From Roseateles puraquae (GTDB lineage Bacteria > Pseudomonadota > Gammaproteobacteria > Burkholderiales > Burkholderiaceae_C): a stretch of 64,000 nucleotides of DNA. Both the position numbers and the translations under genes were made by a program. Under the pieces are notes generated by a model. It was not told the DNA's origin. It ran no database searches and saw nothing but the letters and a program-made list of their open reading frames with translations. Shown piece by piece: positions 4,879-8,921 of this stretch (within the stretch, counting starts at the first letter, position 1; each line of letters opens with the position of its first letter). The stretch lies in contig NZ_NISI01000001.1 of NCBI RefSeq assembly GCF_002205845.1, forward strand, positions 744,001 through 808,000, written 5' to 3'.

Positions 4879-5571
4879 TCACCCCCCGGCGGCCTCGGCA
4901 ATGCGGTAGCCCACGCCGGGCTCGGTCAGCAGCACACAGGGTTCTCCCGGATCGGCTTCGAGCTTGGCGCGCAGCTGGCCCATGTAGAGCCGAAGGTAGT
5001 GCGTCTGCTCGGTGGCATCGGCGCCCCAGACATCAGCCAGCAGCCGCCGGTGGGTGACCACCTGGCCGGCCTGGCGCACCAGGCGCGCCAACAGCTTGAA
5101 CTCCGTGGGGGTGAGCCGCACGTCCACGCCGTCGCGGCGCACGCGATGCGCGGTCAGGTCCACCTCCAGCCCGGCACGCCGGTACAGCGTGATGGCCGGC
5201 TGCGCCACCGTGCCGCGATGGCGCAGTGCCACGCGCAGGCGGGCCAGCAGTTCACCGATGCCGAAGGGCTTGACGAGGTAATCGTCCGCGCCGGCATCCA
5301 GCAACCGGATCTTGTGCCCCTCCACCTGCCGCGCCGAGATGACGATGAGCGGCGTGGACCGGTCGCGACGCAGCGCCTGCAGCAGGGTCTCGCCGTCGCC
5401 ATCGGGCAGGCCAAGGTCCAGCAGCACGGCGTCGAGCGTGCCGGTGTGGGACAGCTGCGCCATCGCATCGGCCAGGCTCGCAGCGGCCAGCACTTCGTAG
5501 CCCTCCACGGCCAAGGCCTCGCGCAGCGTCGCGCGCAGTTCGCGGTCGTCCTCGACGAGCAGCAGCTTCAC
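4879..5571 (-). CDS. KdpE-like OmpR-family response regulator
   Basis: DNA-binding response regulator partnered with the kinase immediately upstream. Receiver domain residues 1-115 with the acidic pair EDD (8-9) and phosphoacceptor Asp52 in VLLDLGLPDGDG, the conserved Lys in LVKPFG, then a winged-helix domain (about 130-225) with RLTPTEFKLLARLVR and LRLYMGQLRAKLEADP, which is characteristic of KdpE. The start is GTG at 5571 preceded by GGAGG; it overlaps the kinase stop as GTGA. In many bacteria KdpE controls potassium uptake, but no kdpFABC genes are nearby, so the target is unknown. Confidence 0.85.
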   Translation of the reverse strand: MKLLLVEDDRELRATLREALAVEGYEVLAAASLADAMAQLSHTGTLDAVLLDLGLPDGDGETLLQALRRDRSTPLIVISARQVEGHKIRLLDAGADDYLVKPFGIGELLARLRVALRHRGTVAQPAITLYRRAGLEVDLTAHRVRRDGVDVRLTPTEFKLLARLVRQAGQVVTHRRLLADVWGADATEQTHYLRLYMGQLRAKLEADPGEPCVLLTEPGVGYRIAEAAGG

Positions 5572-6851
5572 ATCGCCTCCGGCAAGGCCGGTGCCTCGCG
5601 AAGCGGCAGCCAGCATTGAAAGCTGCAGCCGCCATGGCCGCGCGGGCGCAGCGTGAGGCGCCCGTGGTGCGCCTGCGCAATCGCGCGGCAGACCGCCAGG
5701 CCCACGCCTGCGCCGGGCGGGCGCTGGGCAAAGTCGGCCAGGTCACCACGCTGGAAGGCGTCAAACACCCGCTCCCGCCACGCCGGCTCGATGCCTGGGC
5801 CGCGGTCGCGCACCGCCAGCACCACATCGCCGCCGATGCGGCGCACCACCAGCTCCACCGGCGCCGCCGGCGGGCTGTACTTCAGGGCGTTGTCGATGAG
5901 GTTGTCCAGCAGCTGCGACATCAGGGCCGCATCACACCACAACAGGGGCAGGCCGGGCTCGATGCGCGACCGCACCCGCTCGCCGTCCGGCCGGCGGCGC
6001 ACCCGGCGCAGCGCCGCGCCGACGATCTCCTCGGCCGACTCCCAGTCGCTGCGCAGGGCCACGCCGGGCGCACCGAGGCGGGCCAGCTGGAGGGTGTTGT
6101 CGGTCAGGCGCACCAGTCGGGCGGTCTCGTCCACGATGCGGCTGGCGAGCTCGCCGCGCTGGGCGGCACTGAGCCGCTCGCCCTGGGTCTGCAGCGCCGA
6201 GGCCGAGCCCATGATGGTGGCCAGCGGCGTGCGGTAGTCGTGCGAGATGGCGGCAAGCATCGCATTGCGCGTGGTCTGGACCTCGGCCAGCTCGCTGGCG
6301 CGGCGCGCCTCGTCATGCACCCGCTGCCGCTGCAGGGCCAGGCCCATCTGGTCGCACAAGGCCTGGGCATGGGCCATCAGGTCGCCGGGCAGGGCCCGGG
6401 CGCCCAGGCCGAAGAGCACCACCGCCCCGAAGGCGGCCTCACGGCCGCGCAGGGGCAGGTAGAGGTCGGGCTCACCCGCATGGTGATCGGTGCCGGGCCC
6501 CAGCGCGCGGCCGCTGGCGGCGCACAACTGCAGGCCGGCGAGCGCATTCGCATCCGGCTCGCCCAGCACCAGGTCAGGCGCCTGCGGCTGGGGCTGCAAC
6601 AACGCCGCCACGGGGGCGGTGGCGCGGGCGGCCAGGGCGCGCGTCAGGTCGGCGGCATGCGTTTCGGGCCGGTCGGCATCGCGCATCAGGTCGCCAAACT
6701 CGCGCAGTTCGCGCTCCAACTGCGCGGCGCGCTGGGCCGCCCTCAGGCTGCGCCAGGCCTGGCGCAGCTTCCAGCCCACCCAGGCCAGCGCCATCAGCGA
6801 GCCCAGGGCAACCCAGGGCAGCAGGTGGACGAAGGGACGGGTGGGCGTCAT
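5568..6851 (-). CDS. KdpD-like sensor histidine kinase, lacking the KdpD N-terminal domains
   Basis: Sensor kinase of 427 residues. One N-terminal membrane segment (about 9-28), a GAF-like region (about 65-175), then a HisKA domain with ISHDYRTPL (His204), and an ATPase domain with N-box NLIDNALKYSP, DRGPGI and GAGVGLAVC. The H-box and the catalytic core resemble KdpD. The large KdpD N-terminal half (KdpD domain, universal-stress domain) and the four-helix membrane region are absent. It follows the SPFH gene after only 12 bp and overlaps the response-regulator start by 4 bp, so the three genes probably form one operon. Confidence 0.85.
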   Translation of the reverse strand: MTPTRPFVHLLPWVALGSLMALAWVGWKLRQAWRSLRAAQRAAQLERELREFGDLMRDADRPETHAADLTRALAARATAPVAALLQPQPQAPDLVLGEPDANALAGLQLCAASGRALGPGTDHHAGEPDLYLPLRGREAAFGAVVLFGLGARALPGDLMAHAQALCDQMGLALQRQRVHDEARRASELAEVQTTRNAMLAAISHDYRTPLATIMGSASALQTQGERLSAAQRGELASRIVDETARLVRLTDNTLQLARLGAPGVALRSDWESAEEIVGAALRRVRRRPDGERVRSRIEPGLPLLWCDAALMSQLLDNLIDNALKYSPPAAPVELVVRRIGGDVVLAVRDRGPGIEPAWRERVFDAFQRGDLADFAQRPPGAGVGLAVCRAIAQAHHGRLTLRPRGHGGCSFQCWLPLREAPALPEAM

Positions 6852-6863
6852 GGGCGGCGCAGT

Positions 6864-8921
6864 TTAGGCGGGCACCGCTTCGGTCAGGGTGGGCACGGCC
6901 GACGCGCCCAGGCGGTCCTTGACGAGACCCGCCAGCAACACATCCACCAGCGTGCCGCCCTGGCCCGCCGCGGCGCCGCCCACTAGCACCTCCGGCACCA
7001 GCTTGACGCCAGCGCCGGCCAGCGCCTGGGCCACCTGCACGATGGCGTAGTTGCCCGATTCCATCGAGCCGATCTTCTGCCGGATGACCTCGGCCTCGGC
7101 CTCGCCGATGGCCAACGTGCGGCCGGCTTCGGCCTGGCCGGTGACGCGGGTCACCTCGGCATCGGCCTCGGCGGTGATCTTCTTGGAGCGGGCCGCGCCA
7201 TCCGCGGTCTTGACGGCGGCCTGCGCGCTGAACTCGGCGATCGCCACCTTGCGCTCGGCATCCACCACCTGGGCCTGCGTGCGGGCCAACGCCGTGGCCT
7301 GCTCCAACTGCTGGCGCACGCCCTGGGCCTCCATCTGGGTCGTGAAGGTGACCTTCTCCTGCTCGGCGAGCTTGCGGTCGGTGAGCGTCTTCATCAGCTC
7401 GGCCGGCGGCACGATGTCGCCGATGAGGGTCTCGACCGCCCCCACGTCGTAGGCCTTGAGCGCCAGCGCAATGGCCGCCTTGGCCTCGGCCTGGCGTTCG
7501 CTGCGCTTCTTCAAGAAGTCGATGACATCGGAGTTCTGCGCCGCGTTGCGGAAGTAGTTGCCGATGGTGGGCTCCAGCACCTGCGTGACCAGCGCCTCCA
7601 TGCTGCCGAAGCGGGCGATGACCTTGGGCGCGTCGTTGCGCGGGATGTGGATGATCTGGCTCACGTCCAGGTTGAAGGTGAAGCCATCGGCCGAGCGCAC
7701 GGTGATGGTGGAGAGATTGGCATCGAGCTTGTGAGCCTCGGTCTTGCCCGTGGCCCAGTTCAGCACCACGTTGGCGGTGGGCACCACGCGCACCTTGTGG
7801 GTGTAGGTGTTGATGGCGTATTTGCCTGGGTCCAGCACGTCCACCCACACGCCCTTCTCGCCGCGGCGGACCATGTTGGCATGGCGGAAGCCCTCGCCGG
7901 TGACGTCCTCCCCAGCCTTGCCGACGAAGGCCACCACCACACCGACCGAGGCGATGGGCACTTCGGTCATGTCGATGATCTCGACGGTGGCAAACATCGG
8001 GTTGATGAAGTAGCGGCCGGCCAGCAGCACCTGCTCCTGCAGGCCTTTGGTGCCGCCTGCGTTCACGAAAGCCTGCGGGTCCTGGTAGACGTTGTGGCCC
8101 GGCACTTCGGGGCCGGCGATCTCGCCGGTGTGCAGGGACGCGCCTTCGCGGGTGGTCACGATGCCCACCTTGTTGTCGGGCACATCGGTCACCGGCACCT
8201 GCGTCACGCGGAACAGGCCCGGGTTGATGCGGTATTTGCCCTGGGGAATGACGTTCATCTGCGGGCCACGCTCGCCGCCGCCGGCCATGAAGGCGCGGGC
8301 GTCCTGGAAGCTGTCGCAAGCCACGGCGCGGCCGATCACCCGGCCACCGGCCAGGGGCCGGCCATCACGCGCTTCGACAATGCCGATCTTGCCCGGCTCG
8401 ATCACGGTCATGCGCTCCAGGCGCACGCTGAACAACAGGGTATTGATGCGCCAGGCCCCGGGCGGCACCACGCTCATTTGCAGGCCACGCTCGCCGCCAG
8501 CCAGGAAGGCGCGCGCATCCTGGAAGTTGTCGCAGTCGACATGCCTTGCCAGCACGCGCCCGTCCGGCAAGGGCAGGCCATCGCAGGCCTCGACGATGCC
8601 GATGGCGTCGTCCGGCACGACGGTGAACTTGACCAGATCCACCTGGTACTGCCAGGGCCACAGCCCCAGGTGCAGCCCCGGCGCGAGGGTGTCGGCCTGC
8701 AGGCCGGCCTCGCCGAACAGGGCCACGATGCGGCCGGGCGGCAGTTCGCGGTGGCGGCCGAAGAGGACGAACTTCTTGGTGACCGTGCCGATGGAATCAT
8801 CCGGCACGATCACAAAACCGAAGAGGCGCAGCGTGCGCTTGTAGAAGACCAGCGCGATGACAAGCAACAGCGCAAGCAACGACCACCACGGATGGTCGAT
8901 CGGGAAGGTCAGGGTGTCCAT
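6864..8921 (-). CDS. SPFH/flotillin-type membrane protein with five internal repeats
   Basis: A 685-residue protein with one N-terminal membrane segment (about 13-27). Between residues 38 and 380 a unit of about 65 residues recurs roughly five times (38-97, 101-166, 173-238, 246-311, 321-378): an IGIVE-type strand, a DG.PL..GR turn, a FQDARAF..GG segment, and a closing PPG.WRIN. Then follows an SPFH domain (about 380-560) and an Ala/Glu-rich coiled coil of flotillins (AEADAEVTRVTGQAEAGRTL) and a short hydrophobic tail. SPFH proteins organise membrane microdomains and scaffold signalling. The start ATG at 8921 was chosen because the membrane segment follows at once. It heads the operon with the kinase and regulator. 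Confidence 0.82.
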   Translation of the reverse strand: MDTLTFPIDHPWWSLLALLLVIALVFYKRTLRLFGFVIVPDDSIGTVTKKFVLFGRHRELPPGRIVALFGEAGLQADTLAPGLHLGLWPWQYQVDLVKFTVVPDDAIGIVEACDGLPLPDGRVLARHVDCDNFQDARAFLAGGERGLQMSVVPPGAWRINTLLFSVRLERMTVIEPGKIGIVEARDGRPLAGGRVIGRAVACDSFQDARAFMAGGGERGPQMNVIPQGKYRINPGLFRVTQVPVTDVPDNKVGIVTTREGASLHTGEIAGPEVPGHNVYQDPQAFVNAGGTKGLQEQVLLAGRYFINPMFATVEIIDMTEVPIASVGVVVAFVGKAGEDVTGEGFRHANMVRRGEKGVWVDVLDPGKYAINTYTHKVRVVPTANVVLNWATGKTEAHKLDANLSTITVRSADGFTFNLDVSQIIHIPRNDAPKVIARFGSMEALVTQVLEPTIGNYFRNAAQNSDVIDFLKKRSERQAEAKAAIALALKAYDVGAVETLIGDIVPPAELMKTLTDRKLAEQEKVTFTTQMEAQGVRQQLEQATALARTQAQVVDAERKVAIAEFSAQAAVKTADGAARSKKITAEADAEVTRVTGQAEAGRTLAIGEAEAEVIRQKIGSMESGNYAIVQVAQALAGAGVKLVPEVLVGGAAAGQGGTLVDVLLAGLVKDRLGASAVPTLTEAVPA

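Follow-up and report, generated by a model that had tools for sequence, protein, structure and literature searches.

A putative membrane-tethered, vault-like SPFH protein in Roseateles puraquae, with relatives on plasmids and in phages

In Roseateles puraquae, the minus strand of a 64,000-nucleotide stretch of contig NZ_NISI01000001.1 (positions 744,001 to 808,000; hereafter the window) encodes P0001, a protein in which a run of tandem repeats precedes an SPFH domain. What could such a protein build, and is the repeated module new? A preliminary description of the locus, made from the DNA letters, had suggested a periplasmic or membrane-proximal sensor array and perhaps an undescribed domain; the open reading frame that it gave is confirmed (Table 1). 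We propose that P0001 is probably a membrane-tethered, vault-like SPFH protein that would form a cage with a wall of repeats, and that in Roseateles the cage could possibly house a kinase.

As read from its sequence, the protein comprises an N-terminal transmembrane helix, five units (four in most relatives), one SPFH domain and a coiled coil. The sole Pfam match in P0001 is Band_7 (PF01145; residues 356-536, E 6.2e-28, 98.5 bits with a cut-off of 23.6), a model matched by all 72 of 72 family members (E<=1), and by this curated cut-off the protein is assigned to the SPFH / Band 7 superfamily. The window belongs to a 6.06-Mb genome, and the nearest named genomes are those of Roseateles and Pelomonas, with 91-94% identity over the best segment.

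Tandem units ahead of the SPFH domain

Unit bounds were drawn by eye (Table 1; those of the shuffle test differ by 1-2 residues), and local alignment scores between units were each compared with 1000 shuffles. About five tandem units had been claimed, with the second and third as the closest pair, and self-alignment bears out both points. Units 2 and 3 score 199 (z 38), the pairs 2 and 4, 3 and 4, and 2 and 5 score 104, 109 and 67, and the pairs 3 and 5 and 4 and 5 score 59 and 55, all reached by 0/1000 shuffles. Unit 1 is, from its sequence, a degenerate copy that is clear only against unit 2 (score 55, 0/1000 shuffles); its similarity to units 4 and 5 is weak (7/1000 and 4/1000 shuffles reach the score) and that to unit 3 is insignificant (352/1000). 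The repeats do lie N-terminal to the SPFH domain, as described, but they do not stop at its edge: unit 5 overlaps the start of the Band_7 match, and the units thus run into the SPFH domain. A multi-copy module in this position also sets P0001 apart within its genome, where the unit was absent from 31 open frames of more than 250 amino acids at the six other SPFH gene loci (best E 0.48 and 0.51).

For the family as a whole, eight partial, broken or duplicate rows (L021, L034, L064, L131, L136, L139, L143 and L144) were first left out, and rows with identical cores were then merged (115 to 96). A unit profile, into which all 96 of these non-identical proteins had gone, detects five units in 21 of them and four in 75. 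The difference is a tidy one, as in a 21-row alignment (A1) unit 2 is missing as a clean block from eight sequences.

Could the repeats be a mere spacer? An ordinary flotillin-like scaffold of membrane microdomains, with repeats of no special function, would account for the likeness of the coiled coil to that of flotillin-2, for the records of plasmid relatives, which name the flotillin family or an SPFH protein, and for conservation that is highest in the SPFH core and lower in the units. One residue is found in at least 95% of 72 sequences at 75 of the 120 SPFH-core positions, and at 14/62, 12/71, 19/77 and 22/66 positions in units 1, 3, 4 and 5. However, the invariant positions in these four units exceed what a free spacer needs, and four or five units are kept by 96/96 family proteins (a set drawn with a unit-containing profile). 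Moreover, P0001 scores 17.4 bits with the FloT NCBIfam equivalog, far from its curated cut-off of 700. We regard the scaffold explanation as unlikely.

Predicted fold and comparison with the major vault protein

Pfam and NCBIfam contain no named domain for the repeat module, but the suggestion of an undescribed domain is not supported, as the predicted fold is that of the repeat of the major vault protein (MVP). In the AlphaFold2 model of P0001, the units share one strand pattern, in line with the expectation of a repeated fold. All 15 of 15 Foldseek matches against the PDB at E<=0.001 are MVP (best 1.4e-8), followed by an SPFH structure (E 0.01), and VIA-align places MVP at ranks 1-12, with low TM-scores for this predicted model. 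Because the top matches of both searches are all MVP, the predicted fold is of the vault type and hence not new, and a novel fold for the units is rejected on the same matches. As a prediction, it is fairly secure that the units have a vault-type fold with the strand order of the MVP repeat.

The resemblance may extend to the order of the parts. Like P0001, MVP has tandem beta repeats followed by an SPFH shoulder and a long helix, and it is the best PDB match by structure; the order of repeats, SPFH-like shoulder and helix agrees, and two alignments fit it, with rmsd (root-mean-square deviation) values of 11.7 for 9bw6 and 43.3 for 9bw5, but this region of the model is poor. The two proteins also differ. 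MVP has nine repeats, whereas P0001 has five and the family four or five. P0001 has a predicted N-terminal transmembrane helix, whereas MVP lacks one and its half-cages are joined at their N-termini. Unlike MVP, P0001 has an SPFH part that is recognised as Band_7 and a flotillin-like coiled coil.

Two results weigh against a vault-like P0001: its SPFH part is poorly modelled by AlphaFold2, and it does not match the Pfam models of the Vault repeat or MVP shoulder up to E 1. Vault models are likewise absent from the 25 of 41 Pfam families listed for 72 family members, and sequence-profile searches with P0001, a 21-row profile or a 72-row profile gave no MVP match. The canonical Vault repeat model, PF01505, had no match in 10 carrier genomes or in 395 from the phylum to which G618 (source of locus L031) belongs, a search in which the controls were silent too, so that absence is not implied. 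An annotation-based survey of vaults would probably miss P0001, because the Pfam vault models do not match it.

The structural likeness has another possible source. The units could be tandem copies of SPFH1, the N-terminal half of the SPFH domain, and the resemblance to MVP could come from a shared ancestor only, in which case P0001 would be a flotillin whose SPFH1 part is extended into a stack, with no particular relationship to the vault. Unit 5, which both overlaps the Band_7 match and resembles units 2-4, is what this explanation would lead us to expect, as is the rank of other SPFH structures next after MVP in Foldseek. These structures nevertheless follow MVP rather than precede it, and we hold an SPFH1 stack to be a credible but less probable account than a vault-like protein.

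Membrane topology

On which side of the membrane does the bulk of the protein lie? A helix was called in 87 members, of which 84 have a start near it and were counted; L086, which has no N-terminus, and three more members without a start methionine near the helix fall outside the count. The mean number of lysines and arginines rises from 0.23 before the helix to 1.45 in the 12 residues that follow, with more after than before in 72 members, equal numbers in 9 and fewer in 3. Net charge is less consistent (49, 21 and 14 for the same three classes). By the positive-inside rule, the positively charged flank of a membrane helix is cytoplasmic. Because of the lysine and arginine excess after the helix, we infer that the repeats, the SPFH domain and the coiled coil are cytoplasmic. 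We reject the periplasmic sensor of the preliminary description on this charge bias, which in 72/84 members points to the cytoplasm. As for a sensor array, none of our results hints that the repeats sense a ligand.

A model for P0001

How P0001 assembles, how tall its cage is and what it does can be proposed by analogy. By comparison with the SPFH superfamily and the vault, copies would stand side by side in a ring or dome whose wide end rests on the membrane from the cytoplasmic side. The wall of this cage would consist of the repeats, like the barrel of the vault, with the SPFH ring as its shoulder and the coiled coils closing the top. Each added unit would contribute one tier to the wall, and a five-unit cage would be taller than a four-unit cage. 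Less certainly, and by analogy with flotillins, the cage in Roseateles may house or control the kinase encoded in the same putative operon.

Distribution in bacteria, plasmids and phages

The close family is patchy in bacteria. It occurs in 12/20 Roseateles genomes (E<=1e-30); the copies in G311 and G312 are interrupted or partial, and the SPFH gene is also broken or partial in Roseateles-type metagenome-assembled genomes (MAGs; L021 4905-6949, L034 4989-5675). Samples of the order and the phylum gave matches in 6/300 and 5/299 genomes, and all of these, other than the window's own genome, belong to a distant subfamily ('sub2').

This distant subfamily (L036-L039, L062, L063, L065, L066 and plasmid loci L159 and L160) has four detectable units, the second and third of which are separated by about 40 residues, and on both inspected plasmids it is annotated as flotillin family or SPFH protein. 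Among 72,556 plasmid records, 68 match at E<=1e-10, mainly from Rhizobium (49) and Streptomyces (16), and the plasmid proteins inspected (one from a Rhizobium, one from a Paraburkholderia) have four units each.

Phage records match rarely (6/50,697). The 642-kb uncultured phage LR756502.1 encodes a protein with 46.5% identity over 94% of the query, and five Vibrio phage records have about 27% identity over 49-53% of it; the two Vibrio phages inspected are Ackermannviridae, with three units detected. Viral contigs supplied 87 relatives by family profile, four-unit forms among them, of which the best 80 were kept. A terminase (PF03237) is present in 16/21 viral records, comprising all 16 of 250-642 kb and 0/5 of 72-133 kb, a tail sheath match in 10/21 (four above the cut-off), and a Gp23-like capsid gene in 11/61 viral loci. 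The records behind L082 and L084 are probably near-copies, as their encoded proteins are equal in score, length and start.

Five units are found in 21/26 bacterial rows (window included) and in 0/62 viral rows. The four-unit 'bacterial' rows L028-L032, which come from MAG contigs, could be binned phage. In a tree built with unit 2 removed (midpoint-rooted, with weakly supported deep branches), the close family of 62 viral-database and 26 bacterial rows splits from the 8 'sub2' rows with full support, and the 21 five-unit rows, all bacterial or from the window, lie among viral and four-unit rows. A 37-row tree requires two changes for the five-unit proteins, which are joined in 2% of 200 bootstrap trees. 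Forcing them together costs 7.2 log units (p-AU, from the approximately unbiased test, 0.111), and a single clade is thus not rejected. From these sequences, the fifth unit would have been gained once or twice.

The placement of bacterial five-unit proteins among viral sequences and the patchy bacterial distribution would also suit an escaped giant-phage gene, one that serves host takeover or counter-defence in huge phages, passed from them to Roseateles and relatives and still gives a phage-related benefit, for example against superinfection. However, with a midpoint root and weak deep branches, the tree does not settle which way the gene moved between phages and bacteria, the 8 'sub2' rows form a deeper bacterial subfamily, and the gene in the window adjoins two-component genes. 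Such an origin for P0001 is in our judgement doubtful.

NAD-linked genes near the phage relatives of one clade

The tree divides the 61 non-identical viral loci among clade A (36 loci), clade B (11) and a mixed remainder, C (14). Of the 36 clade A loci, 22 contain a NAMPT-like gene, on the same strand in 22/22 and within 1 kb in 17, and 19 contain a nucleoside-deoxyribosyltransferase-like gene (14 within 1 kb). Genes for a phosphoribosyl pyrophosphate (PRPP) synthetase-like protein, NADAR and a macro-domain-like protein occur in 12, 10 and 9 of the 36 loci. By a crude tiling of genes, the SPFH gene lies directly between the NAMPT-like and nucleoside-deoxyribosyltransferase-like genes in 10/36. 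Compact runs of these three genes are seen in L078, L093, L097, L104, L111, L132 and L140, with PRPP-synthetase-like, NADAR or macro-like genes just upstream. Clades B and C contain no NAMPT-like, deoxyribosyltransferase-like, PRPP-synthetase-like or NADAR gene in their loci.

With one member per cluster, Pfam identified NAPRTase, Nuc_deoxyri_tr2, Pribosyltran and NADAR, and a Macro match below the cut-off; the NAPRTase family spans nicotinate and nicotinamide enzymes, and NAMPT is our interpretation. Whole records contain NAPRTase in 20/30 cases, and in 15/16 of those of at least 250 kb. In one survey, NadV is reported in 33% of jumbo phages (PMC9503650), a rough comparison given that our records are related and that huge phages without the SPFH gene are not among them. 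A known defence system is not indicated, as PADLOC matched neither P0001, nor two relatives from phage contigs, nor a NAMPT-like neighbour.

Other neighbours include a viral contig gene (L044 7015-9777), next after the SPFH gene in the downstream direction, in which a uracil-DNA glycosylase domain is fused to a DNA polymerase of family A, and a peptidase M28-like gene near the SPFH gene in 8 viral loci, within 1 kb in 7/8 (for example L127 6286-7029).

For eukaryotic vaults, a recent report describes NADase activity of TEP1 in vaults, ADP-ribose in the MVP shoulder, and binding of NAD+ (nicotinamide adenine dinucleotide), ADP (adenosine diphosphate) and ADP-ribose by the SPFH shoulder (PMC13174449). 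Huge phages might then build a membrane-tethered vault-like cage that acts in conflict over NAD+ and ADP-ribose, an idea that we put forward as speculative and rather improbable. If it were true, the strong conservation of the SPFH core would reflect a nucleotide pocket, vault-like cages would have had a part in NAD-linked immunity since early times, and some bacteria would keep a taller, five-tier version.

A histidine kinase beside the gene in Roseateles

Downstream of the P0001 gene, the window encodes a histidine kinase and a response regulator (Table 1), the latter examined in the window only. The kinase is present in 11/20 Roseateles genomes, in every case adjacent to the SPFH gene, be it whole, broken or partial, and follows it in 11/12 SPFH carriers. 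The exception, G317, has the most diverged copy of intact length (86% identity). None of the 8 Roseateles genomes without the SPFH gene has the kinase (E<=1e-60). G311 and G312 have an open kinase frame beside an interrupted or partial SPFH gene, where an assembly error is possible. Bacterial flotillins are held to scaffold membrane kinases. We propose a similar scaffolding of the kinase because it co-occurs with the SPFH gene in Roseateles, and this linkage keeps a signalling role for P0001 possible.

Among the downstream neighbours of the bacterial loci, no partner is conserved across all bacteria. These neighbours include a patatin (L016), a cation efflux protein (L031) and, in L017, a HisKA protein that does not cluster with the Roseateles kinase. 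In L014 (2373-3140) and L025 (7085-8002), the vault-like gene is followed after 66-68 bases by an ordinary SPFH gene, and the two products could possibly form a hetero-oligomer pair.

Table 1. Coordinates in the window of P0001, its predicted parts and the adjoining two-component genes
Feature	Position	Strand	Basis
SPFH protein P0001 (putatively vault-like), 685 amino acids	6864..8921	minus	ATG at 8921, stop at 6864; Pfam Band_7
N-terminus and predicted transmembrane helix, residues 1-36 (helix about 11-33)	8814..8921	minus	model helices 11-25 and 27-33; hydrophobic stretch in the family, lysine and arginine bias
Unit 1, residues 37-98, degenerate, without the FQDARAF segment	8628..8813	minus	unit alignment, model
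Unit 2, residues 99-171, extra unit cleanly missing from four-unit relatives	8409..8627	minus	unit alignment, family alignment
Unit 3, residues 172-242	8196..8408	minus	unit alignment, model
Unit 4, residues 243-319	7965..8195	minus	unit alignment, model
Unit 5, residues 320-385, reaching into the Pfam SPFH match	7767..7964	minus	unit alignment, Pfam, model
SPFH core, residues 386-505, best-conserved part	7407..7766	minus	Pfam, family conservation
Coiled coil, residues 506-620, like that of flotillin-2 by sequence profile	7062..7406	minus	profile search, model
C-terminal tail, residues 621-685, variable, low-confidence	6867..7061	minus	model, family conservation
Histidine kinase (HisKA, HATPase_c), 12 bases downstream of the P0001 gene	5568..6851	minus	Pfam domains
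Response regulator (Response_reg, Trans_reg_C), overlaps the 3' end of the kinase gene	4879..5616	minus	Pfam domains

Relation to known systems and significance

The flotillin and bacterial SPFH cages (FloT, QmcA, HflK/C) share with P0001 an SPFH domain and a coiled coil, and the best PDB matches of P0001 by sequence are QmcA and flotillin-2. To our knowledge, no run of repeats precedes the SPFH domain in FloT, QmcA or HflK/C. In P0001 and two relatives from phage contigs, the SPFH and coiled-coil part matches the phage 'lipoprotein' family phrog_200; the match begins at profile position 113-119 of 379, inside the last unit in P0001 and L145, and the earlier units are unmatched.

The claim that vault-like proteins exist in bacteria and phages has been made before: one paper (PMC13404743) cites homologues of MVP in bacteria (Sokolskyi 2019; Burroughs and Aravind 2016) and MVPs of gut bacteriophages (Santos et al. 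2023). These proteins are MVP-related, and their families possibly overlap with that of P0001. A 2026 paper treats the domains of MVP as exclusive to the vault (PMC13100048). That phages carry SPFH genes is also already known (for example PMC13384950), and one is annotated in a Vibrio phage record.

In the open PubMed Central literature we did not find a membrane-anchored family with vault-type repeats invisible to Pfam and with four- and five-unit forms, nor its presence in huge phages or its NAD-gene neighbours. The main text of a jumbo-phage survey (PMC7824862) contains none of the terms SPFH, band-7, stomatin and flotillin; that of the NAD survey (PMC9503650) lacks SPFH, band-7 and stomatin, and that of a huge-phage paper (PMC7162821) lacks SPFH, stomatin, flotillin, band 7 and HflC.

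The vault is one of the largest particles in eukaryotic cells, and what it does is not yet well understood. A putative membrane-anchored relative from Roseateles, with four or five repeats in its family and a variant that differs cleanly by one unit, would be a simple system in which to study the role of the repeats. Giant phages have this architecture too, in one clade frequently next to NAD-handling genes, which would give a link, open to experiment, with the reported NADase activity and ADP-ribose in vaults. The family also suggests a route by which a membrane SPFH protein, through duplication of a repeat, may have given rise to a vault-like cage.
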